Source: a virus
DNA: 22,325 bases
Reading direction: 5' to 3' (one strand)
Virus record (IMG/VR): IMGVR_UViG_3300013004_000207
Location: 1-22,325 of that record
Shown here: one piece after another, positions 1,524 through 20,471 of the stretch
Layout of the letters: the number at the start of each line of letters is the position of its first letter
Position numbering within the stretch: position 1 is the first letter of the stretch
Notes under the pieces: generated by a model
Told to the model about the DNA's origin: nothing
Databases searched by the model: none
Seen by the model: the letters and a program-made list of their open reading frames with translations, nothing else
Position numbers and translations under genes: made by a program

Positions 1524-1536
1524 TATAATAAATATC
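1524..1536 (-). promoter_or_regulatory. TATTTATTA motif before the HNH gene
   Basis: On the coding strand this reads GATATTTATTATA, with the ATG at 1522 one base further on. It starts one base after the TAG stop of thymidylate synthase. It is one of five intergenic copies of the core TATTTATTA. It may act as a -10-only, late-type promoter giving a leaderless mRNA, or as a translation or RNA-processing element. Here the stop codon is not part of the motif, unlike the other four copies. Confidence 0.45.
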
Positions 1537-6988: not shown

Positions 6989-7249
6989 TCAATGCAACCA
7001 TTCTTCATATCCCATGGTCATTGCTTCTGAAATATCAAGTTTTGGATTTTCTTTCATGTATTTAAGTGCATATGCAACAACTTCAGAAGCTAAACCAAAA
7101 TCATGGGCATCATTCAAATAATATGTGACTACATCAATTGACTGATTTATACATTCAATTGGTTTTTTGCGTCGACGAAATAATAAATGTTTAATGCGGT
7201 CGAAGAATGCTTTATCTTCGATAAAATTTTGGTTTAGCTTCTTTTTCAT
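6989..7249 (-). CDS. Small helical protein, unknown function
   Basis: 86 aa. The N-terminal 30 residues are very basic (FRRRKKP at about 24-30); the rest is predicted helical (VVTYYLNDAHDFGLASEVVAYALKYMKENP), ending in an acidic stretch. It begins two bases after the groEL stop, so it is translated from the groEL message. It is too different from GroES (no mobile-loop pattern, wrong fold) to be the missing co-chaperonin. No family is recognised. Confidence 0.7.
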   Translation of the reverse strand: MKKKLNQNFIEDKAFFDRIKHLLFRRRKKPIECINQSIDVVTYYLNDAHDFGLASEVVAYALKYMKENPKLDISEAMTMGYEEWLH

Positions 7250-8898: not shown

Positions 8899-8912
8899 TA
8901 TAATAAATATTA
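8899..8912 (-). promoter_or_regulatory. TATTTATTA motif upstream of groEL
   Basis: Coding strand: TAATATTTATTATA, beginning with the TAA stop of the preceding gene. Unlike the other four copies, it lies about 25 bases before the ATG and is followed by a separate AAAGGA ribosome-binding site. This placement supports a DNA-level promoter role rather than a purely translational one. Confidence 0.5.
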
Positions 8913-9443: not shown

Positions 9444-11615
9444 TTAATTAGCTATTTCTAAAAATTTATTGTTAATTGTTTTTGCCACTTCCATCATATT
9501 GCCTGTCTGAATAAATTGAGCATCTGCGCCATACATTCTTTTGAATAGATTTACAGCCGTGCTATAAAATCTATCGTATATGAAATAACTCAGAATGCTA
9601 ATATTATAAGATTTCATTTCATTGATTACCGCGCGGGTAAATTCAACTCCATCATAATTCCTATAACATCCTTTGATTGATGTTGGTTCGCCATCTGAAT
9701 AATTAATAAAGATTAATTCATCTCCTTTAGCATCCGTTTTAATATCTTTGATGATACTTTTAAACGCAATTCCTTCTGGTGTCAAACCAAATGTCTTAAG
9801 ATATTTAAAATAAGTTTTGATTTTATTCAATTTATCATGAGCTGAGTCATACGCATACATTGTAACACATTGTTCAGTGCCAGACATATCGTGACTTGTT
9901 CCTCGCAATGAAATTTGCACTCTAATTCCATTGGTCATACTAGCCGCTTGGGCAATTGCAACGGCACTTGTAATTGCATTATGCAATTTGTCTCCGCCAC
10001 TCATTGATCCAGATGCATCAATTGAAATGTGTATAAAATAGTTTTTAAAATGATCCGTTACTATGCGATGGAACACATTGACATTGTTGTATCCTAATTG
10101 AGCAACCAATCTTCTATCAATCTTACCAGTTTGTAGTCGTGTCGATTTAAGACTCTTATCTGCATTTCTTAATTGAAGTTTGTTTCCTAATTGTTTGCCT
10201 AACAAGATTCCTTTTTGAACCGCTATATCCATTTTGTGAACACTTGAATTAGATTGAGTTGATATTGTTCTAACATTATTAATATAATCAGCAGCCCAAC
10301 TGTCAAATAAATGAGGCATTGTGCATATAATTCCAGCATTGATTTTTTTAATTACAACAGTGGTAACCGGATCTGCTTTGCCGTCCATACTAGTATACAC
10401 TTCGCGGGTTTCAGTTCCAGATTCTTTAATTGCATTAACCAATCTAGATTGCGATTTGCTTAGTCGACCGGTCTTTTTAGATTGACCATTTAGAAAATCT
10501 GATTGAGACTTAATTGCCTTTTCTAATCGAGCTTGGTCCTGGGTTGATAACTCAGTTACAATAATTTCTTCTTTAACCTCATCTTTTGAGTCAGTGTCTT
10601 CCTCAGCAGATTCATCACTGTCATCATCTTCATCATACTCAGCTCCACTAAACTGATCATCCGTGTCATCTGTTTCATCATAGTCTTCTTTATTAGAGTC
10701 TGGTGCATTGCCATCCATATCAGTTTTGTCAGACTCTGGTTCATCTTCCCATTCTTCTGATGGAGTTGTATTAGATGATTTGTCAGATTCTGGACCTGAA
10801 TTGCCCGGGCTCTTCTCATTGCTTATTAAGCCGTTATCTTCATATAGTTTTTCAAGTTTTTTCAATTCAACTTTAGATACAGCCTCCTTGATGATTCTAT
10901 ATGTATCACATGCAAGATCCAATGCGTCTAATGTAGACTCCAATCGCCCAATAGTTTTTAAATCAATTAGGTTCCAAATATCTCGCAATCGTTTCAATGC
11001 ATTAAGATTTCTATGTGGATTAGTAAAATTGATAATATGAAACATATAACAATCCCAATCTTCTATAATCTTTGCATTTTTCTGCAGAGCTTTATCAATA
11101 ATTTTATCATTGAAATACACGGCATACATGGATTCATAATATGAACGGTATCCTGGAGCATTTGTATATACTTTGAGATCAATTCTTCGATCTTCAATCC
11201 AATTCAACAAATCTTTGATATGTTTGAGGTCGGCATTTGACATATTGCAATCTGGATCTAGTCCTCTGTATCTTATATGAGTTGAAAAATTGCTAGTTGC
11301 TAATGTACTACCTCCTTTAAATATATCAAAATCAGTATATGCAATATGAGAACCTTCGTGTAATGCTAATCCAACTGCAGAATCAAAATTCTTGCCATCT
11401 AAGGTTGTACCAATTACAACAGATTCGCCATCCGTGTAACTAGAATCATTGTTTTGAAATACTACTGGTATTTGCTTGCCGGTTACAATGTTAACAAAAT
11501 TCCCAATTGCTCGTTGCGCGGCCGCTAATTTAGTGTAATCCTTGTTTGATTTACCGAAATCAACATCGAATTCACGATTTAACCAAAAATTTGAAGATTG
11601 TGTCTTAGTTGCCAT
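9444..11615 (-). CDS. CobT-like protein with HEGSH motif and C-terminal VWA domain
   Basis: 723 aa. Residues about 80-98 contain LALHEGSHIAYTDFDIF, a zincin-like HExxH motif as seen in CobT/VWA-type proteins. Residues about 265-355 are a low-complexity acidic linker (long runs of Asp, Glu and Ser). The C-terminal part carries a VWA domain with the MIDAS motif DASGSMSGG (Asp near 532) and a later NYSDGEP. It is paired with the AAA+ ATPase gene directly upstream, 9 bases away, as in CobS-CobT and RavA-ViaA pairs. In such pairs the ATPase remodels a target chosen through the VWA protein. Cobalt chelation itself is unlikely without a CobN subunit. The HEGSH site might be catalytic or only structural. 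Confidence 0.88.
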   Translation of the reverse strand: MATKTQSSNFWLNREFDVDFGKSNKDYTKLAAAQRAIGNFVNIVTGKQIPVVFQNNDSSYTDGESVVIGTTLDGKNFDSAVGLALHEGSHIAYTDFDIFKGGSTLATSNFSTHIRYRGLDPDCNMSNADLKHIKDLLNWIEDRRIDLKVYTNAPGYRSYYESMYAVYFNDKIIDKALQKNAKIIEDWDCYMFHIINFTNPHRNLNALKRLRDIWNLIDLKTIGRLESTLDALDLACDTYRIIKEAVSKVELKKLEKLYEDNGLISNEKSPGNSGPESDKSSNTTPSEEWEDEPESDKTDMDGNAPDSNKEDYDETDDTDDQFSGAEYDEDDDSDESAEEDTDSKDEVKEEIIVTELSTQDQARLEKAIKSQSDFLNGQSKKTGRLSKSQSRLVNAIKESGTETREVYTSMDGKADPVTTVVIKKINAGIICTMPHLFDSWAADYINNVRTISTQSNSSVHKMDIAVQKGILLGKQLGNKLQLRNADKSLKSTRLQTGKIDRRLVAQLGYNNVNVFHRIVTDHFKNYFIHISIDASGSMSGGDKLHNAITSAVAIAQAASMTNGIRVQISLRGTSHDMSGTEQCVTMYAYDSAHDKLNKIKTYFKYLKTFGLTPEGIAFKSIIKDIKTDAKGDELIFINYSDGEPTSIKGCYRNYDGVEFTRAVINEMKSYNISILSYFIYDRFYSTAVNLFKRMYGADAQFIQTGNMMEVAKTINNKFLEIAN

Positions 11616-11624
11616 ACTTTAAAA

Positions 11625-12782
11625 TTAAAATGGATGAAAGTCTTCGGTTGGGTGATCTAGCTCACCGCCTACATTAAATATATCAGTTGCTGCTTGCTCC
11701 ATATGTTTCTGCACAACTTGTTTAACATATGTTCTTTCTGAATCAGTACCTCCTGATGCGTCAAAGAATGGTATGATTGAAACTTCAGCCGCTTCTTCCA
11801 AAGAAAAACCATCACACAATAATTCACATACTCGCACTGTCATACGAGTTGATATCATGGTGGTTAATTTGCCTTCTTCGGATCGCCATTCTTTGCGTGT
11901 TGCATCTGCAATGTCAGCCACTGAATGTATTAGGCTTGCTGATAACTTGTTGCCATACTTGTATGTTAACAATGCTTCTTCTCGCTCTAATGATAGAATA
12001 TCAACTTCGATAATTTCAAATCGATCCATCAATGCTCTATCCAATACTCGGGTTGATGTGTATTCAGTTCCGATATTTGCTGTGGCAATAAATGATACTC
12101 CGGAAGCTACGTGAATTGTTGGGGCATCGATGTGTTCATCTAATCTTAGATAGCGTTGACCTTCATCTAACACCGTCATTAAAATATTCCATGCTTCTGG
12201 ATGTGCTCTGGATAATTCATCTAGCAAAATTACCGAGTTCTCAGTTTTAATTGCCTTAACAAATGCAGATTCATCAAAACATGTTTCGCCATCCTTAAAA
12301 TGCGTGTTTCCAATCAATGTTGCACGTGGATCTTGAGTAGCTCCTAAGTTAAAATAAAAGAATGGACGATCCGTTGCCTTAGGTAATGCTTTTGCGGCTT
12401 CTGTTTTACCACAACCAGCTGGACCTACCATCATGATGTTTTTACCGCGGAGGGCTGACCGAACAAGATATTTCCATTTAATGTCAGTCATTTCTAAATC
12501 AGCTGGCTTAATTTTTGCAGCATTTTTAATTAGTTGCATTACTGGATCTAATGGAGTGGCTTCAATTGGCGTTTCGGCAACCGTGTATGATTCGTTTGGT
12601 TCAACCTCACTTCGACTGCATCGTCTAGCTCTACCACTATCCATGTCATACATTAGCAACTGATCGTTGTCCCTTGCAACATCAATAATGCTTTGACGAA
12701 ACAAATGCGTGATGTTTTCTTTGGTAGCAATATCATATACTAAGTTAGTATAGACATCTACATAGCCATATAATTTTTTCAT
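11625..12782 (-). CDS. MoxR/CobS-type AAA+ ATPase
   Basis: 385 aa. Walker A GPAGCGKT at 120-127, Walker B VILLDEL at 184-190, sensor 1 FIATANIG at 231-238, and arginine residues in VLDRALMDRFE (246-256) that can serve as fingers. The order and the region between Walker B and sensor 1 (SRAHPEAWNILMTVLDEGQ) match the MoxR/CobS clade. The N-terminal 80 residues have a beta-rich piece (YGYVDVYTNLVYD) of unknown function. It lies immediately before the VWA gene and would form a hexameric motor with it. cobS-like genes are common in T4-like marine phages, where their role is unsettled. It is the first gene after a promoter at 12806-12834. Confidence 0.93.
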   Translation of the reverse strand: MKKLYGYVDVYTNLVYDIATKENITHLFRQSIIDVARDNDQLLMYDMDSGRARRCSRSEVEPNESYTVAETPIEATPLDPVMQLIKNAAKIKPADLEMTDIKWKYLVRSALRGKNIMMVGPAGCGKTEAAKALPKATDRPFFYFNLGATQDPRATLIGNTHFKDGETCFDESAFVKAIKTENSVILLDELSRAHPEAWNILMTVLDEGQRYLRLDEHIDAPTIHVASGVSFIATANIGTEYTSTRVLDRALMDRFEIIEVDILSLEREEALLTYKYGNKLSASLIHSVADIADATRKEWRSEEGKLTTMISTRMTVRVCELLCDGFSLEEAAEVSIIPFFDASGGTDSERTYVKQVVQKHMEQAATDIFNVGGELDHPTEDFHPF

Positions 12783-13957: not shown

Positions 13958-14743
13958 TTACCAGTTTCTACAAGACCAGTAACGAGCTTTAGTACGTGGG
14001 CCTGGATTATCACAGTTATGTCTAGCTCGGAAGCTTTTTCTTCTTGCTGGATTATTCTTTTTGATGCTCATTGTTTTTTGTCCAGCTCGCTTTGCTGAGG
14101 TGCCTCCATGGCCAAAGTTAACTTTAACTACATTGCCTTCTGCATTGCGTACATACACTTTGAATTTTTTAACATCGCCTCGGGTTGGTTTCCCCAATTG
14201 CACTTTGCGGCCCTGATATTCTGCTTCGTGTAATGTTGAAACTTTGCCTTCTTTGATATCACGCATTAGTTCCAATGCACATCCATCACAAATTGTAGTT
14301 TCTTTCATGTAATCCTTGTTTTGTATATTTTCATTATTTTTTGATTTGTTGCCCCAATTTTTTGCGCCTTGTTTGCGACATTTAGATAAAGCTAAAGACC
14401 CATATGCTGATGGCCAGGTTCCTCCATCCTTTGTATACCGCGCTTTAACTTTGTAATAACAAGCATCTCGTTTCGGAGTTTTTTCTTCATCTACAATTGA
14501 TTCTGCTTTTGGAGTTCGCTTACCCATACCAACTTTACGTTTTTGGGCTACCAATGAATCTTTTTCTTTTTTGTCAAAAGAGCTCCATGTTTTAGGAGTG
14601 TCATCTGAAACTTTGCGACTAGGCCGACATTTCTTTACACCTTTTGTTTTAGAATTACCACATGGACGACCGTTTTGATCTAACCATTTTTCTTTAACCC
14701 ATCGACGTAAATCTTCATTTATAATATCATGTAATTTAATCAT
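13958..14743 (-). CDS. Putative head-packaged protein: DUF5872-like part plus basic C-terminal domain
   Basis: 261 aa. The N-terminus MIKLHDIINE|DLRR resembles a T4 capsid-targeting leader with cleavage after [IL]-x-E. Residues about 14-140 (RRWVKEKWLDQNGRPCG, KKCRPSRKVSDDTPKTW, CYYKVKARY, WPSAYGSLALSKCRK) look, from memory, like DUF5872, known from phages and giant viruses. Residues about 145-200 include STLHE|AEYQ, a second possible cleavage site. The strongly basic end (RRKSFRARHNCDN, ARYWSCRNW) resembles the end of virion-associated proteins of T4-like marine phages. Cysteines are numerous and could bind zinc. It overlaps the upstream gene by one base. It may be processed into two or more head proteins; the biochemical role is unknown. 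Confidence 0.8.
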   Translation of the reverse strand: MIKLHDIINEDLRRWVKEKWLDQNGRPCGNSKTKGVKKCRPSRKVSDDTPKTWSSFDKKEKDSLVAQKRKVGMGKRTPKAESIVDEEKTPKRDACYYKVKARYTKDGGTWPSAYGSLALSKCRKQGAKNWGNKSKNNENIQNKDYMKETTICDGCALELMRDIKEGKVSTLHEAEYQGRKVQLGKPTRGDVKKFKVYVRNAEGNVVKVNFGHGGTSAKRAGQKTMSIKKNNPARRKSFRARHNCDNPGPRTKARYWSCRNW

Positions 14744-15492
14744 TATAGTTCCTGTCTTATTGCTAGTTTAGGCAACCATTTTCTCCATGTCGTCAATATA
14801 GTTTGCATTTCATCAGCTGTGATTGCTTTCTGATTGACCCACCCAGTTAAATATTTTTCAACTACTTGTTTGAATGGCTGTTTTGATTTTTTTGCTTTTG
14901 TATGTAATCCATGGATCATTGCTGGTATTTCCTTTTTAAGCAAGAAATAATTCACGGCTGACAATTCACCCGAATTGATTTTGCTTCGGCGATTCATGTC
15001 TGATGGCATGAATTTAGATGACTTTGTGTTCCAACCACTTTGTGTGGTATGTTCAATTTCATGTCTCAACAAGTCTCCAAGATGCATTGCAGTTTTGCTT
15101 AAAACTTGAGGCCAATCCGCCGGATCCATTTCAAAACGTATTTCTATCAATGGAGGCTCATCTGAGACCCTTTTGGTGCTGTTATATGCATCGCCTCCAT
15201 AACGGTAATCCTTTAATCCTTGGGCCCATTGTACTTTAAGAGACACGTAAAAATCAAGCGGAATAGTAGGATTTTCTACTTCCTCAAAGTATATTTTTTC
15301 AAATTGAGCATCATCATCGATATTAGGCACCTTTTCATCGGATTTAAAGTATATTTTCTGACCTGCAAACATACCATTAGGATCTTGCGTGGCTGAATAA
15401 CTATCTTTAACAACTCGAAGCATTTTTCTTGATAGATCTGTTACTATGCTATCATATCGTCCTTCTATTATCAATGTTTTAAGTGATATCAT
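14743..15492 (-). CDS. HExxH zinc metalloprotease with capsid-targeting-like leader
   Basis: 249 aa. The N-terminus MISLKTLIIE|GRYD fits the T4-type leader and [IL]-x-E cleavage rule. Residues about 139-149 hold LLRHEIEHTTQSG, a zincin HExxH motif; a glutamate in YFLLKKEIPAMIHG, some 40 residues later, could be the third ligand as in gluzincins. The N-terminal part is beta/alpha mixed (LDFYVSLKVQWAQG; LIEIRFEMDPADWP) with no signal peptide. A TATTTATTA motif ends two bases before ATG. It precedes the DUF5872-like gene with TAATG overlap. If packaged, it could be injected and act on host proteins; acting in head maturation is an alternative. Substrate unknown. Confidence 0.8.
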   Translation of the reverse strand: MISLKTLIIEGRYDSIVTDLSRKMLRVVKDSYSATQDPNGMFAGQKIYFKSDEKVPNIDDDAQFEKIYFEEVENPTIPLDFYVSLKVQWAQGLKDYRYGGDAYNSTKRVSDEPPLIEIRFEMDPADWPQVLSKTAMHLGDLLRHEIEHTTQSGWNTKSSKFMPSDMNRRSKINSGELSAVNYFLLKKEIPAMIHGLHTKAKKSKQPFKQVVEKYLTGWVNQKAITADEMQTILTTWRKWLPKLAIRQEL

Positions 15493-15506
15493 ATTAATAA
15501 ATATCA
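15493..15506 (-). promoter_or_regulatory. TATTTATTA motif before the metalloprotease
   Basis: Coding strand: TGATATTTATTAAT, joined directly to ATG 15492. The TGA is the stop of the upstream HNH gene. It is identical over 14 bases to the copy at 17430-17443. A start site 5 bases after TATTTA would fall on the ATG, giving a leaderless message. Confidence 0.5.
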
Positions 15507-16061
15507 GTCCATTAAATTATAGTTCCACCAAGTCTCTTTTTGTTTGTTGAACGGATTACCAGCTTGTTGGTAATAACAATTCAAACATAGCATCTGCAGA
15601 TTTTCTATGCGGTGGTTTACTTCATCTCCGTCAACATGGTCCAACAGCAATGGCACAGTGTCATCTGTTACTCGTCGTTCTGAGTATCCACATGATGCAC
15701 ATTCTTCTGGCAATATTGCCAATGCTAATAATCGGTTACGAAGCTTCCATGTTGGGTAGTTTGGAAACTCGCCTTGTAGAATTCGGTCTATAGAATATGG
15801 CCCTGAATTAGCCCCTGCTGAATCTTTTGTGATGCCAACGCCAGCCTGATTGGTATGCATATCATACAAGGTCTTTTCTGTTTCCCGGTCTCGATACATG
15901 TTAGCATACTTTTTCCAAGTTGTAAATGATACACGACAAAATCTAGCAGCTTCTGAATTTGACTTGGTATTGGACATTGCATACCGGATATCTGATTCTG
16001 ACAAATCAAATGATGTTCGACCCCGACCATAAACATACTTATATTTAGGTTGGTCTTCCAT
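15504..16061 (-). CDS. HNH-type nuclease or DNA-binding protein with N-terminal helix-turn-helix
   Basis: 185 aa. Residues about 21-56 (SESDIRYAMSNTKSNSEAA, VSFTTWKKYANMY) look like a helix-turn-helix of the kind that selects DNA in small phage proteins. Residues 121-165 are an HNH/zinc module: CASCG (121-125), LLLDHVDGD (138-146, His142), IENLQMLCLNC (152-162). The usual final histidine after CxxC is Tyr (CYY), so catalysis may be altered, though the DH pair and zinc cysteines are kept. A GGAG lies upstream of the start, which overlaps the previous stop (TAATG). It could be a homing endonuclease, a packaging-associated HNH protein or a regulator. Confidence 0.82.
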   Translation of the reverse strand: MEDQPKYKYVYGRGRTSFDLSESDIRYAMSNTKSNSEAARFCRVSFTTWKKYANMYRDRETEKTLYDMHTNQAGVGITKDSAGANSGPYSIDRILQGEFPNYPTWKLRNRLLALAILPEECASCGYSERRVTDDTVPLLLDHVDGDEVNHRIENLQMLCLNCYYQQAGNPFNKQKETWWNYNLMD

Positions 16062-16447
16062 TAATATACTCCTAACTTTCTCAGTTCTAACAATGCAGAC
16101 TTTGGCGACATTTTTTTCTCAAACATGTTAGTTAACTCGGGTTTCAAATTCATTGTAAAGTCTACAAAGGTTTGTGGATAAACATTAGATGTTCGTTTAA
16201 TTTCCGCATACCATGTTGAATATGATGCATAGTCTTCATCGAATCGATCTAAATCGGTTCTGTTTTCCCAATACTCAATTTGATCTTGCAGTGGCCATAA
16301 ATTTACTGGCACTGATGCATCTTTTCTGCGTTCTGGTAATATCGGTTGACCTTTTGCTCGATTTGCATTTCTAGTAATGAACTTGTCCATTAAATTGATA
16401 GAACGGTCTTTTGGGGACATTCCTGAGTGTGCTGATTTCTTTCCCAT
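16061..16447 (-). CDS. Protein of unknown function
   Basis: 128 aa, basic N-terminus (MGKKSAHSG, RNANRAKGQP), then an acidic, aromatic middle (DRFDEDYASYSTWYAEI) and a helical end (ELTNMFEKKMSPKSALLELRKL). No signal peptide, membrane segment or catalytic motif. It follows a 58-aa gene by three bases and overlaps the HNH gene. The position before an HNH protein recalls packaging regions, but there is no evidence that it is a small terminase. I do not recognise the family. Confidence 0.7.
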   Translation of the reverse strand: MGKKSAHSGMSPKDRSINLMDKFITRNANRAKGQPILPERRKDASVPVNLWPLQDQIEYWENRTDLDRFDEDYASYSTWYAEIKRTSNVYPQTFVDFTMNLKPELTNMFEKKMSPKSALLELRKLGVY

Positions 16448-16450
16448 AAC

Positions 16451-16627
16451 TTATTTTGTTTTTTCTCGTAATATAACTAGTTTGCGCCAAGCATCTTCTG
16501 CTCGATATATGTATTTTTTAAATTTAATGATGTCTTGCTGTTTGCGCGCAAAGTCAGCTTTTTTTATGTTGCGATGATATGCTGCATGCAGCATTCCAAT
16601 TCGCCAATTATATAACCATTTAAACAT
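16451..16627 (-). CDS. Small basic protein of 58 aa, unknown function
   Basis: ATG at 16627-16625, TAA at 16453-16451. The protein is very basic and aromatic (MFKWLYNWRIGMLHAAYHRN, then IKKADFARKQQ and YIYRAEDAWRKLVILRE) and predicted to be mostly helical. It overlaps the end of the clpS-like gene by 8 bases and ends 3 bases before the next start, filling what would otherwise be a gap of about 170 bases in a fully coding region. This tight fit argues it is real. It may be a membrane-associated or nucleic-acid-binding micro-protein; function unknown. Confidence 0.7.
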   Translation of the reverse strand: MFKWLYNWRIGMLHAAYHRNIKKADFARKQQDIIKFKKYIYRAEDAWRKLVILREKTK

Positions 16628-16889
16628 TTTTTTTATATTTTATTATTGTTACTAATAATCCTTGTTCTGCTAACTCTGTTTGTACTTCGTTACAGTCATC
16701 CCAGAAATCAACAAATATACTACATTGACCTACCTGATGTGTAATTGTAGAACACTGCACTGCTTGTATATAGCTTTGTCCACAAATTTCCATTAAGCAT
16801 GCTATAACATGTTGTACTGTGGTATTGTTATCGTTAAGCAATATTACCTGCCACTGTCCACGCTTACTAGTTGATTGTTTTTTTGACAT
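16620..16889 (-). CDS. ClpS-like N-end rule adaptor
   Basis: 89 aa. Residues 13-80 follow the ClpS fold: WQVILLNDNNTT with N19-D20, HVIACLMEICG, IQAVQCSTITHQVGQ with His51, and a final VTI strand. The distance from Asn19 to His51 (32 residues) equals that between the binding-pocket Asn34 and His66 of E. coli ClpS. Asp36 is Asn21 here and the gatekeeper Met40 position is Val25, so specificity may differ. ClpS delivers proteins with certain N-terminal residues to ClpAP or ClpCP. A phage copy could redirect or block host proteolysis. It overlaps both neighbours and is read after the 64-aa gene from the promoter at 17067-17095. Confidence 0.85.
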   Translation of the reverse strand: MSKKQSTSKRGQWQVILLNDNNTTVQHVIACLMEICGQSYIQAVQCSTITHQVGQCSIFVDFWDDCNEVQTELAEQGLLVTIIKYKKNV

Positions 16890-17061
16890 CTCTAATTATT
16901 GCACATTGTTCAAAAAATTCATGGCGCTCTGCATAATCTAAACAGCTTTCTAGAAACTTTAGTTTGCGAGGCTCACTCCAATCATATGGCCATATCCACG
17001 AACTGCCAGACATAGCATTAATAGAATCTATTAATAGTTTGTTAACATAGTTTTCATCCAT
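16867..17061 (-). CDS. Small acidic protein, unknown function
   Basis: 64 aa with two tryptophan-rich turns (GSSWIWPYDWSEPRK) and a helical end (FLESCLDYAERHEFFEQCAIIRD). No known motif. It is the first gene after the promoter at 17067-17095, with almost no leader, and overlaps the ClpS-like gene by 23 bases. Co-expression suggests it may work with ClpS, perhaps as a partner or substrate, but nothing direct shows this. Confidence 0.7.
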   Translation of the reverse strand: MDENYVNKLLIDSINAMSGSSWIWPYDWSEPRKLKFLESCLDYAERHEFFEQCAIIRDVKKTIN

Positions 17062-17066
17062 AACTT

Positions 17067-17095
17067 ATAATATGAAAATATTAAGAATAATCCAA
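17067..17095 (-). promoter_or_regulatory. Promoter for the 64-aa and ClpS-like genes
   Basis: Coding strand: TTGGAT (17095-17090), 17 bases ending in TTTCA, then TATTAT (17072-17067). Only five bases separate the second box from ATG 17061, so transcription would start at or next to the ATG, giving a leaderless message. Confidence 0.68.
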
Positions 17096-17096
17096 A

Positions 17097-17429
17097 TTAT
17101 TTGCTTTTTTGATCGCGTATGATCAATTCACCTAATACTTCTAGACGACCTACTTCTCGTTGAAATTCAATCGGAGTCATGGTCAATGAAATACTTTTCA
17201 ATGTTTTTTCAAATTCCTTTTTAGCAGAATCGATATCGAATTTACCAGCTGTAGCTTGTTTATAGTATGAAGCTTTCACTTTAAAGTGATGCCATGTTAA
17301 TAATGCCAACCCGCCTTTTTCTTCAGCAGTTGAAGCTATCTTAGCAGCACCTTTTCCGCGTGTTTCTGCAAATTCCTCAAACTTATCGTTAGTTTGTTTG
17401 GATTCAAATAATAAATTGTATAGTTTCAT
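17097..17429 (-). CDS. Putative head-packaged protein with capsid-targeting-like leader
   Basis: 110 aa from the ATG at 17429. An ATG five codons upstream (17444) is in frame, but those codons are the TATTTATTA motif itself, and in three other genes the motif directly precedes the start, so 17429 is preferred. It then begins MKLYNLLFE|SKQT, matching the T4 leader pattern with [IL]-x-E cleavage. The rest is helical and basic (AAKIASTAEEKGG, FKVKASYYKQATAGK, DSAKKEFEKTLKSI). No enzyme motif. By analogy with T4 internal proteins it may be packaged with DNA and injected; function unknown. Confidence 0.75.
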   Translation of the reverse strand: MKLYNLLFESKQTNDKFEEFAETRGKGAAKIASTAEEKGGLALLTWHHFKVKASYYKQATAGKFDIDSAKKEFEKTLKSISLTMTPIEFQREVGRLEVLGELIIRDQKSK

Positions 17430-17443
17430 ATTAATAAATATCA
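17430..17443 (-). promoter_or_regulatory. TATTTATTA motif before the 110-aa CTS protein
   Basis: Coding strand: TGATATTTATTAAT, joined directly to ATG 17429 and identical to the copy at 15493-15506. Its TGA is the stop of the upstream gene. Confidence 0.5.
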
Positions 17444-18067
17444 TTCATGCCAAATTACATTTTTAAACTTTTCAGGGGACAACCCAAAGTAATTAGTTCG
17501 CCAAGCTGTTTGTTCAAAGAAATCTAAATAAAACCATTTATCCTTTAATTGCCACAATCGTTTTGCAATGTCATCCCAATCATTATTTATTACAAAATTT
17601 TCAATTTCAAATTTCTTTTCATGTATTAATTCATATTCAAATGAATCCCATTCATAATGAAATACTTCAAATACTGAATTTTCAGATACGTAATCTATAG
17701 AAATATCAATACCCCATTTGGGTTTCATTTTGATAATTTTATATAACATTGGATTATGTGATGCATACTGTGTTAATTGTTCTAACGCAGAATCATTATA
17801 TGCTTTTCGTTCAAACAAATCTGAATGGTTAATATGTGCGCCTTCAAACTTATCCCACACGATCCATGGCTGCCGTATCACAGTTTCATGTCGGCGAACT
17901 TTTTTCGGATATCCGTTGATATCTGCATATCGTTGTTCGATTGTAGTTAAATGATATCCATTTTGATCGAATAAATCAGTACAACGTTTATCAGATAAAA
18001 TATCAACATCTTCTAATTTTACGTTCCAATATGGATCTGGATTAAATGTTGTATTTTCTATATTCAT
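17441..18067 (-). CDS. Protein of unknown function
   Basis: 208 aa, rich in Asp, Trp, Tyr and Phe. The N-terminal part (NPDPYWNVKLEDVDILSD, RYADINGYPKKVRRHE) and C-terminal part (DDIAKRLWQLKDKWFYLDFF) look like a globular cytoplasmic protein. No signal peptide, membrane segment, cysteine cluster or known motif, and no capsid-targeting leader (MNIENTTFNP). It sits within the block of head-packaged candidates but its start gives no sign that it belongs to it. I do not recognise the family. Confidence 0.72.
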   Translation of the reverse strand: MNIENTTFNPDPYWNVKLEDVDILSDKRCTDLFDQNGYHLTTIEQRYADINGYPKKVRRHETVIRQPWIVWDKFEGAHINHSDLFERKAYNDSALEQLTQYASHNPMLYKIIKMKPKWGIDISIDYVSENSVFEVFHYEWDSFEYELIHEKKFEIENFVINNDWDDIAKRLWQLKDKWFYLDFFEQTAWRTNYFGLSPEKFKNVIWHE

Positions 18068-18070
18068 AGT

Positions 18071-18481
18071 TTATTTTTTAAATATTGGTCCGCCTGTTAC
18101 CCATGCAGCACAACTTCTTGCACCAGCACATTTGAAATGAAGAAAATTACAATAACCTAAATCACCTTGTTCAATTGTAGCTAATGCATCGATGTTTTTT
18201 TCTTTGCCTTCAATTCCGTTAGTCATACAATCATACATTTTGTCTGATATATCAAATGCAGCACAATTAGCACATTTCATTGTTTTAGCAGTAGCTTCAT
18301 CAGTTTTCCAACGCTTTGCAGCATCTTTCCAATATTTGCCTGGCTTATCTGGATTTGCTGGTCCATAATGATAGTCATCTATTCCGTGTTGGCGATTTTT
18401 CAAATTAACATGAATATCTTGTGTTGCTATTGGACAACCCGTTTTTGCTTCAATCAATAAATGTTTTAATTTTTCCATCAT
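18071..18481 (-). CDS. Cysteine-rich phage protein with capsid-targeting-like leader
   Basis: 136 aa. MMEKLKHLLIE|AKTG fits the leader and [IL]-x-E cleavage pattern (the start may be the second Met). The mature part begins with GCPIATQDIHVNLKNRQH, then YGPANPDKPGKYW, MKCANCAAFDIS, YDCM, LGYCNFLHFKC and SCAAWVTGGP. Eight or so cysteines in C-x-x-C and spaced pairs suggest a metal site, possibly an iron-sulfur cluster or zinc. From memory, a protein with this CP.ATQD..VNL.NRQ start and C..W..GGP end is common in T4-like marine phages, without known function. The start overlaps the upstream stop by one base. Confidence 0.8.
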   Translation of the reverse strand: MMEKLKHLLIEAKTGCPIATQDIHVNLKNRQHGIDDYHYGPANPDKPGKYWKDAAKRWKTDEATAKTMKCANCAAFDISDKMYDCMTNGIEGKEKNIDALATIEQGDLGYCNFLHFKCAGARSCAAWVTGGPIFKK

Positions 18482-18951
18482 TATTTTTTATGTTTTGAAA
18501 TTTCAACTGCAGCTAATTGAGCCAAAGCAGCTTTTTTTGATTTAGGTTGTTTGGATAATCTTCTACCAGTTTCAGTAGTAGCAAAGTATCCAGATTCTGT
18601 TTTTTCAATACGCTCTGGCATCAATTGTTTGAGATGATTTTTAAATCCTACTGGTACAAATTGAGGTTGTTGCATATTATATGAATTTGATTCATGTTCA
18701 TGATGCATTTCATTCATTAGAAAATCTCCAACTTCTTGTACATCATCTTTTGAAGTTGCAATATGGTCTGCAGCCCAATCGTGTCCATTACTTAATATCT
18801 CTTGAACTTGATCGGGGTTCATCTGCAACATGGCATCTACATATTTTTTAATAATTTTTAAGTTGCCAAAAAACATATAATTTCCATTCTCATCATTGCA
18901 ACCATTCGTGCCTCCACAACCACAACTACATTCATTGATTTGTTTTTTCAT
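18481..18951 (-). CDS. Putative virion protein with Cys-Gly cluster, unknown function
   Basis: 156 aa from ATG 18951, which has AAAGGA seven bases upstream; a start 15 codons earlier (18996) lacks this. It begins MKKQINE|CSCGCGGTNG, again an [IL]-x-E site followed by a Cys/Gly cluster that may bind metal. Residues about 25-85 (YMFFGNLKIIKKYVDAML, DWAADHIATSKDDVQEVGDF) are helical and resemble a small domain I recall from Bacteroidota phages. The end is basic (RRLSKQPKSKKAALAQL). It overlaps the upstream 64-aa gene by 20 bases. It may be a further head-packaged protein. Confidence 0.75.
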   Translation of the reverse strand: MKKQINECSCGCGGTNGCNDENGNYMFFGNLKIIKKYVDAMLQMNPDQVQEILSNGHDWAADHIATSKDDVQEVGDFLMNEMHHEHESNSYNMQQPQFVPVGFKNHLKQLMPERIEKTESGYFATTETGRRLSKQPKSKKAALAQLAAVEISKHKK

Positions 18952-19126
18952 TGTTATTCCTTTTTTTGTATATAGGCCAATTCTTAGTTTTTTCATTTAG
19001 CCAATCAGCTCGGTCATCACAACCACAATCTTCATCAAGGAGTTGAGCAATCTTTTTTGCAATTTGATCTAATCCTGTTGCTGCGGTAATTTTTTTAATG
19101 TCGTCGCCTAATCCTTTACTTTGCAT
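18932..19126 (-). CDS. Small conserved phage protein with CGC motif
   Basis: 64 aa. GLGDDIKKITAATGLDQIA (5-23) followed by LLDEDCGCDDRADWLNEKTK (28-47) recalls a small protein found repeatedly in Bacteroidota phages and prophages, recognisable by a GLGD.I.K.T.ATG start and a CGC..R...LN end. Function unknown. LLDE|DCGC also matches the [IL]-x-E rule, though it is internal. The start overlaps the NTase-SET gene end by 11 bases. No ribosome-binding site stands out, so translation is probably coupled. Confidence 0.75.
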   Translation of the reverse strand: MQSKGLGDDIKKITAATGLDQIAKKIAQLLDEDCGCDDRADWLNEKTKNWPIYKKRNNNEKTNQ

Positions 19127-20456
19127 TAGGATATCCTCCTTTTCTCATAAAGTCTTCAGGTTGTTCTAACTCAGGTTGAAGTCTATAATTTGTAGTTAAC
19201 TCTTCTCCAGGTTGTATATCACGTTTTGCATATACATATCTTTGATTACCTTTTTTAATACTATACATGTTAGGTTCATCAGAATGATTATGCATCTTTC
19301 CAATGTGTCCAACAGGTTGACCATTTTTATGAGCTAAACCTATAAGTTGATCTTTTCTAAAACCTTGATTAGAAAACAAACCTTTATTGGCTCCTTCTAT
19401 TTTAGAAGGCTTTACTACAACATGATTATGTTGCATTATCAAGGATTCAGTAACTTCGTCTTGTTTTTTGAATGCCGATGGTAATATGTATTTGTCGGCT
19501 TTGATTGCTTTGGCTAAAATTGCCAATAAACTACCGCCTGGCGCAATTGCCATACCTGTTAATCCTAACATTTTCACTACATCACCCATTTGATTGCGAA
19601 CCCATTTCCATTCTTCTGAAGTTAGTTTTTCTCCGTTAAGATGTTGCAGTAGCATGGCCATTGCGTGTTTTGTTTCATCGGTTTCGGTTTTAACTGCACC
19701 TACAAACCGTTTAACTTGATCTTTTGTTTTTTTAGCTAAATCTGGCATATCTACTTCTTTTACGACTTGTTCTATTGCAAGACGACCTCTAGATACTTTT
19801 TGCTCAATACGATTTAAACGTTCTAAATAACCTTGATTACGTAGATGTTTATAAGCCATATTCTCAATCGAGTATTCTCCCTCAGCTTGCAAGCCTGTAC
19901 TACGGAGATGGCGTAATCTTTGTTTTATGTTTTGAATTTTTTGTTCTACTTGTGGATCTTCTTCTTTTAAAGCATCAATCTCATATTGGTATGGATCTGC
20001 CTTTTGTTGAATTGCAGAATCATCAATCGATACTTGGTCAGCTGATGGTTGTGAAATCCATTTGCCTTTCATCACCGAATAAACGCCTACTGTTGAATGT
20101 AATTCCTGATTTGAATCTTGGGCATAAAGTTCAATGTTCATGCCTTTGTATATTAATGGATAATTTACATTCCATATACTTTTTTTAGCATGCATATAAT
20201 TACCAACCAAGTGCATGTTATCACCCACTTCCATGTAATTAATTACAACATGCAAATCAATATCACTGTACTCAGTCCAATTGTAATTTGCATTGCTTCC
20301 AATCAAAATAACATCATGTATATCTGCATTTATTTCTAGGAAATTATAAAATTCTTTGGCAATTTTCATAAATCCAACACGCAACTTTGGACGAAGTTGA
20401 TCGCCTTTCCAAAGTTTTGGATTAAGTGTGCTCTGTGTTTCGTATTCGGTTATCAT
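19116..20456 (-). CDS. Nucleotidyltransferase-SET domain fusion
   Basis: 446 aa. Residues about 10-140 form a nucleotidyltransferase: LNPKLWKGDQLRP, then LIGSNANYNWTEYSDIDLHV with the G-S motif at 53-54 and Asp65/Asp67, and a third acidic residue probably Glu109. Residues about 155-250 are charged and helical. Residues about 280-330 contain a hydrophobic hinge (DVVKMLGLTGMAIAPGG, KYILPSAF) seen in other phage proteins. Residues about 344-435 form a SET domain: VVVKPSKIEGANKGLFS, NHSDEPN (390-396), ELTTNY (419-424). SET domains transfer methyl groups to lysine; NTases transfer a nucleotide to a protein, RNA or small molecule. Such a pair could modify host or virion proteins. A TATTTATTA motif ends three bases before ATG. 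Confidence 0.85.
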   Translation of the reverse strand: MITEYETQSTLNPKLWKGDQLRPKLRVGFMKIAKEFYNFLEINADIHDVILIGSNANYNWTEYSDIDLHVVINYMEVGDNMHLVGNYMHAKKSIWNVNYPLIYKGMNIELYAQDSNQELHSTVGVYSVMKGKWISQPSADQVSIDDSAIQQKADPYQYEIDALKEEDPQVEQKIQNIKQRLRHLRSTGLQAEGEYSIENMAYKHLRNQGYLERLNRIEQKVSRGRLAIEQVVKEVDMPDLAKKTKDQVKRFVGAVKTETDETKHAMAMLLQHLNGEKLTSEEWKWVRNQMGDVVKMLGLTGMAIAPGGSLLAILAKAIKADKYILPSAFKKQDEVTESLIMQHNHVVVKPSKIEGANKGLFSNQGFRKDQLIGLAHKNGQPVGHIGKMHNHSDEPNMYSIKKGNQRYVYAKRDIQPGEELTTNYRLQPELEQPEDFMRKGGYPNAK

Positions 20457-20457
20457 C

Positions 20458-20471
20458 TATAATAAATATCA
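20458..20471 (-). promoter_or_regulatory. TATTTATTA motif before the NTase-SET gene
   Basis: Coding strand: TGATATTTATTATA, then G and ATG 20456. The TGA is the stop of the upstream membrane protein. No TTGGA-type box lies 17 bases upstream, so this is a different class from the seven two-box promoters. Confidence 0.5.

Follow-up and report, generated by a model that had tools for sequence, protein, structure and literature searches.

We analysed the window, the complete 22,325-base IMG/VR record IMGVR_UViG_3300013004_000207, in which an initial annotation had noted five genes whose products start with short leaders ending in [LI]xE and had compared these leaders with the capsid-targeting sequences of bacteriophage T4, which are cut by the prohead protease gp21. 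Our comparison with related phages supports this interpretation, and we put the probability that the leaders are a gp21-processed capsid-targeting tag of a T4-type head at about 0.85, judging from sequence. Three lines of evidence carry the assignment: the conserved leader positions are those of the T4 internal protein IPIII, gp21 and the Gp23 capsid protein are encoded by relatives of the window, and gp21-negative phages provide contrasting cases. The five open reading frames (ORFs) and their leaders, all on the minus strand and all found where they had been placed, are as follows (the arrow marks the predicted cut).

14714–14743, minus strand: leader MIKLHDIINE↓D, T4-type pattern, start of the 13958–14743 protein
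13958–14743, minus strand: putative packaged multi-domain protein with DUF5872 (Pfam), an RDACYxKVKxRY domain and a C-terminal domain
15463–15492, minus strand: leader MISLKTLIIE↓G, start of the 14743–15492 protein
14743–15492, minus strand: putative packaged HExxH protein (HEIEH), metalloprotease by motif only
17403–17429, minus strand: leader MKLYNLLFE↓S, start of the 17097–17429 protein
17097–17429, minus strand: putative packaged 110-aa protein with no assigned fold
18449–18478, minus strand: leader MEKLKHLLIE↓A, start of the 18071–18478 protein
18071–18478, minus strand: putative packaged Cys-rich 135-aa protein, CxNC...GYC...KCAGxRSC
18931–18951, minus strand: leader-like start MKKQINE↓C, 7 residues, a weak member with the [LI]xE motif only
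18481–18951, minus strand: protein with a Cys-rich N-terminus, membership in the leader set uncertain

The first 10 residues of T4 IPIII suffice for packaging, with positions 4 and 7 serving targeting and positions 8 and 10 serving processing, and gp21 cleaves L/I-X-E (PMC9026906). The leaders of the 13958, 14743, 17097 and 18071 proteins have the corresponding residues, namely hydrophobic ones at positions 4 and 7, [LI] at position 8 and Glu at position 10, the 17097 leader with a shift of one residue. The claim that all five genes share the leader therefore stands for four of them, the 18481 start having the cut motif only; with positions 4 and 7 not hydrophobic, we dropped it as an equal of the other four. 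Its orthologues keep [LI]xE↓C all the same (MKRLNE↓C, MKQQLTE↓C, MKMRITE↓C and MAHLNE↓C). The 17097 and 18071 leaders begin at the second in-frame Met of their ORFs, and the 18481 start is likewise the second in-frame start inside a longer ORF.

Alignment of homologues, one of the checks that had been proposed, revealed conservation of the leaders over deep divergence. Among 12 orthologues of the 17097 protein, including that of Flavobacterium phage vB_FspM_immuto (Immutovirus), leader residues L3, L6, L7 and E9 are invariant, the residues that follow form a linker that varies and is shortened by a deletion in immuto, and a conserved domain comes next. The 14743 protein has 37 relatives among viral contigs, essentially all with the leader MIS[LM]KxLIxE↓GRYD; in 23 aligned orthologues E10 is invariant and positions 4, 7 and 8 are hydrophobic. 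Of 10 orthologues of the 18071 protein, 9 retain the leader and one ends it in ...LLKD, with D at P1; the 13958 leader is kept in 6 orthologues. Within families generally, positions 4, 7, 8 and 10 are hydrophobic, hydrophobic, [LI] and E, and positions 6 and 9 vary.

To quantify the signal, we used a pattern built on the IPIII positions. In the window alone it occurs at 4/42 N-terminal and 0/164 internal Met residues (p = 0.0015), and in seven records at 49/984 and 4/3720, respectively (Fisher 2e-29), p-values that are inflated because the pattern was settled after the leaders had been seen and orthologues are not independent. Shuffled N-termini gave 0.05–0.43 expected matches per record, compared with 2–13 observed in eleven records that are gp21-positive or close relatives of such phages, and no excess over the shuffles was seen in the four gp21-negative records G031, G032, crAss001 and phi38:1. 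The motif [LIVMF][LI]xE peaks where it ends at residue 10 (60/1269 genes in gp21-positive or related records, neighbouring positions mostly having 4–25) and is found there in 0/456 genes of gp21-negative phages. The genomes are AT-rich and their gene starts are rich in Lys, Ile, Leu and Asn codons, so that a product of chance or of AT-rich coding bias had to be considered; the excess over shuffles, the internal Met residues and the zero counts in the AT-rich gp21-negative phages crAss001 and phi38:1 refute this explanation, to which we assign a negligible probability.

The leadered proteins fall into 48 clusters, approximately 30 of which were judged genuine by length and leader, and no BLAST similarity was detected between the mature parts of the leadered families. 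The search for further proteins with the same leader, also suggested initially, thus yielded approximately 30 sequence-unrelated families. A shared upstream string, GATATTTATTAATATG, precedes some leader genes and might point to a recently copied 5′ DNA cassette, comprising promoter and first codons, in place of a selected protein signal. Many leader genes lack this string, however, and leaders persist in deeply diverged orthologues. Of the aligned leader Leu codons, only 35/131 pairs are identical and 96/131 differ, and the similarity of the leaders is therefore at the protein level. These synonymous differences largely refute the cassette, which we regard as very improbable.

Two other leader types were recorded. 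The second, of approximately 20 residues, [IL]LAE↓NM[RL]RF[KG]TKNL[SN]E, is found on otherwise unrelated proteins (G001 at 7161, 26128, 96407, 110124 and 117479; G002 at 119023–126541; G003 at 9730 and 82153), and the third, MQKLAGIITE↓, occurs in immuto, G015 and G017.

A gp21 gene was not found in the window record, a search that is uninformative because the record is a 22-kb fragment without head genes. The gp21-like protease for which a search had been proposed was located in two large relatives that share the window genes, G001 (160 kb) and G002 (131 kb); in each, a protease of the Peptidase_S77 (gp21) family and the capsid protein Gp23 score far above the cut-off. A close relative of the window, L001, 98% identical in the gene compared, is 14 kb long. 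In G001 and G002, the His and Ser motifs are conserved in gp21, which starts LIVE↓Y, against LLIE↓T in T4 gp21, and in their Gp23 the segment QLVKE↓ASSTG aligns with T4 FLTE↓AEIGG. The nearest named phage is immuto, in the record of which gp20, prohead protease and Gp23 are annotated. No close DNA relatives of the window were found among named phages. From the kinship with immuto and the gene content we infer Bacteroidota as the host group; the phage is probably T4-headed and its host a Flavobacteria-like bacterium.

The tie between motif and protease is also seen inside the 13958 protein, the C-terminal domain of which (AEYQGRK...ARYWSCRNW, phrog_7595) is preceded by a gp21-type site that the initial annotation had not listed.

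14225–14227, minus strand: Glu173 codon (P1), at the internal site TLHE↓AEYQGR predicted for gp21-type cleavage

[LIV]xE↓[AS] stands in front of this domain in nearly all 25 sequences, despite differing upstream domains. In gp21-positive named phages the residues before the same domain are LEE↓A (HTVC008M), LTE↓A (C48C1, the protein of which also begins MKKFKQYIDE↓), MME↓S (Melnitz-3) and LDE↓G (immuto), whereas in seven gp21-negative phages (Kolga, HTVC026P, HTVC111P, HTVC202P, HTVC112P, CRP-901 and CRP-902) the domain gene starts with M↓A[KT]Y at the equivalent point. The association between gp21 status and the site, four gp21-positive against seven gp21-negative named isolates, has a Fisher value of 0.003. 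Because the gp21-negative version starts M↓A at the same point, the predicted internal cut would yield the N-terminus of the free-standing protein after Met removal. The peptides MKLYNLLFESKQT and STLHEAEYQGR are candidate gp21 substrates.

These observations bear on a further explanation, in which the leader stays uncut and acts as a docking or amphipathic helix for a membrane or another complex, with no link to the prohead protease. The leader is indeed short, hydrophobic and basic, its cleavage is only predicted, and some leadered cargo is lytic or tail-like. However, a Glu that never varies, next to a P2 position free to vary, is the signature of a protease site. The motif has its peak at residue 10, precisely as in T4 IPIII, and is missing from the same domains in gp21-negative relatives, and its internal copy precedes a swappable domain. 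We consider such a helix improbable.

Another gp21-type motif beyond those noted initially lies at the start of a neighbouring protein.

19116–20456, minus strand: protein with nucleotidyltransferase-like and SET domains, first residues MITE↓Y (M[IL]xE↓[YF] start)

This start is kept in approximately 20 orthologues, with x varying, and the protein is a possible additional gp21 substrate on the strength of this motif. Its nucleotidyltransferase-like domain is fused to SET, and shorter orthologues apparently lack the C-terminal part.

The leadered cargo of relatives includes Fe/Mn superoxide dismutase (SOD), in which the leader (MKLMSILTE↓AKQQDFKRLPL...) is an addition with respect to cellular SODs. 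Most of 49 phage SOD loci (L078–L126) have the leader M[IK]x[LM]xx[IL]LxE↓, with a varied P2 and a variable linker, and it persists across very divergent phages, whereas the leaderless SODs L117, L118 and L121–L123 begin directly at the SOD domain. Fragment records cannot be judged for gp21 and Gp23; several leadered-SOD records long enough to include head genes (G015, G017, G020, G022 and G025) have both, and both are missing from the leaderless-SOD records, two of which measure 167 and 266 kb. Leadered SODs of T4-headed phages are accordingly predicted, from their sequences, to be packaged in the virion. The locus L030 (223–858) also encodes an SOD with a T4-type leader. Other leadered cargo in relatives comprises phage lysozyme, a GDSL-lipase/peptidoglycan-binding/tail-lysozyme protein, DUF6934 proteins and weak M56/SprT-like matches, and most leadered proteins match no known family.

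The same holds for parts of the window set. The metalloprotease included in it by the initial annotation retains its motif, H144, E145 and H148 of HEIEH being invariant across 23 sequences; no peptidase family was matched in Pfam or among PDB sequences, and a fold assignment was dropped, as the model was too poor (predicted local distance difference test [pLDDT] 68) and had no PDB match. We therefore refer to the 14743 product as a putative metalloprotease. For the Cys-rich 18071 protein, profile searches returned noise only, and the fold model (pLDDT 46) was not used.

Expression late in infection, as for T4 internal proteins, is suggested by a motif that precedes two of the leader genes and has further copies in the window.

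15497–15504, minus strand: ATATTTAT, candidate late promoter, 12 nucleotides before the 14743 gene start
17434–17441, minus strand: ATATTTAT, candidate late promoter, 12 nucleotides before the MKLYNLLFE start
8903–8910, 20462–20469 and 1528–1535, minus strand: ATATTTAT, further copies

Throughout G001 and G002 this motif is found, mostly on the coding strand, 12–40 nucleotides 5′ of structural genes, among them those for the portal, tail sheath and tail tube, and it is enriched before leader genes (24/42 versus 71/545, p = 2e-10). In this phage group, ATATTTAT is a candidate late promoter; where it sits 12 nucleotides from the ATG, the mRNA may be almost devoid of a 5′ leader.

In T4, internal proteins are expressed late, bound to the scaffold by their tag, enclosed in the prohead, cut by gp21, retained and finally ejected (PMC9026906, PMC3012670, PMC12373910). 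By the same route, the cargo proteins described here would be made late, alongside capsid and tail proteins, and their first 9–10 residues, of the M-I-[RK]-L-K-x-L-L-x-E type, would bind the scaffold core, so that the cargo is enclosed in the prohead. The gp21-family protease would then remove the tag by cutting after the Glu of [LI]xE, with a second, internal cut releasing the C-terminal domain of the 13958 cargo, and the mature proteins would stay with the DNA in the head and enter the next host cell along with it. Packaging and gp21 processing are likely. For ejection and action in the host we infer the T4 course of events, and delivery of most of the cargo into the host appears somewhat better than an even bet.

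The main competitor accepts cleavage by gp21 and assigns the proteins to the core or scaffold, where they would serve head assembly or DNA condensation and would not be host effectors. In T4, the core proteins gp22 and gp67 are likewise cut by gp21 (PMC9026906), the 13958 protein with its internal sites resembles a core protein, and the mature part of the 17097 protein is highly conserved, as expected of a structural protein. On the other hand, there are many leadered families, most of them confined to particular lineages and scattered in occurrence, and they include several enzymes (SOD, lysozyme), which brings them nearer to the variable T4 internal proteins than to core proteins; we hold a purely structural role to be unlikely, at roughly one in four.

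Several observations weigh against the capsid-targeting tag and its use for injection. The 18481 leader is short and lacks hydrophobic positions 4 and 7, and the window's own gp21 is unseen, head genes being absent from its 22 kb. Orthologues of the 13958 protein in L014, L026, L027 and L029 have K at P3, not [LI] (MNLDDVFKNE, MTLDEFFKNE), and in some others the N-terminus is swapped, MQYIDE or MKMYIDE replacing it. The SOD L091 (G016) has no clear leader though its record has gp21. T4 gp21 prefers Ala at P1′, and the P1′ residues of the five window leaders (D, G, S, A and C) are broader. Orthologues are not independent samples, and the p-values overstate the evidence. Finally, the leadered lysozymes and the GDSL lipase/tail lysozyme may be components of tail or lysis modules.

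Among known systems, the closest counterparts of the tagged proteins are IPI, IPII, IPIII and Alt of T4 (Tequatrovirus), which share the tag of approximately 10 residues with hydrophobic positions 4 and 7 and [LI]xE at 8–10, the unrelated mature parts, and the gp21 and Gp23 head (here in relatives). The system is T4-internal-protein-like and differs from T4 in consensus (MI[RK]LKxLLxE versus MKT[YF]xEF...), in repertoire size (14 tagged genes of at least 80 aa in one 160-kb relative versus four known in T4) and in cargo, which here includes SOD, lysozyme, GDSL-lipase/tail-lysozyme and HExxH proteins; as far as searched, the mature parts have no homology to T4 internal proteins. Ejection (inner body) proteins of phiKZ and SPN3US resemble the tagged proteins in that many are cut by a gp21-like protease after Glu, a rule given in PMC9026906, and are ejected with the DNA. 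The tag described here is a short, shared [LI]xE sequence, unlike theirs. In phiKZ and SPN3US the cut motif is a different one and propeptides are often long.

Flavobacterium phage immuto shares with the window the 17097 orthologue, with the leader MRLLELLRE↓A, and has gp20, gp21, gp23 and further tagged proteins (MIKLIDLLTE↓S and others), whereas its metalloprotease-like domain is leaderless and forms the C-terminal part of a NadR-like protein of 907 aa. Two annotations in NC_055915 are likely erroneous: gp082, “tRNA(Ile2) C34 agmatinyltransferase,” is the 17097 orthologue, and gp088, “NMN adenylyltransferase,” has a C-terminal HExxH domain. In DUF5872 proteins of the Kyanoviridae (S-CAM9 gp114, S-SRM01), DUF5872 and KDACYxKVKxRY also occur together, with [IV]NE-like motifs in front; unlike in the window, these domains are internal in 600–700-aa proteins, not N-terminal. 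The motifs suggest that these proteins, too, may be gp21-cut multi-domain precursors. One of the two cyanophage multi-domain proteins, S-CAM9 gp114 (L186) and that of S-SRM01 (L185), adjoins a small terminase gene.

Elsewhere in the window, a MoxR-type AAA ATPase gene adjoins that of a 723-aa protein with DASGSMSG (vWA-like) and N-terminal HEGSH motifs (9444–12782), for which there was no Pfam match, and a NUMOD3/I-TevI-like homing endonuclease gene adjoins a thymidylate synthase gene (878–2905).

A literature search, which did not cover subscription papers, found no earlier description of tagged proteins in Bacteroidota phages or of a virion-packaged phage SOD. Injected proteins of T4 are known inhibitors of host defences, and to our knowledge few examples of injected proteins have been described outside the T-even phages. 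We lean slightly towards the view that T4-headed phages of Bacteroidota-like hosts have a general, exchangeable injection system, in which a 10-residue tag would load into the capsid, for delivery as infection begins, a sizeable and shifting repertoire of enzymes, including SOD, lysozymes, HExxH and Cys-rich proteins and multi-domain precursors with internal cut sites. By a simple N-terminal rule, dozens of proteins of uncultured phages can be named as candidates for packaging, and the rule is directly testable by mass spectrometry on immuto, for which an isolate exists. Such phages could also be loaded with foreign proteins by means of the tag, and the tagged SOD, if packaged, would reach the host as an enzyme ahead of all phage gene expression.

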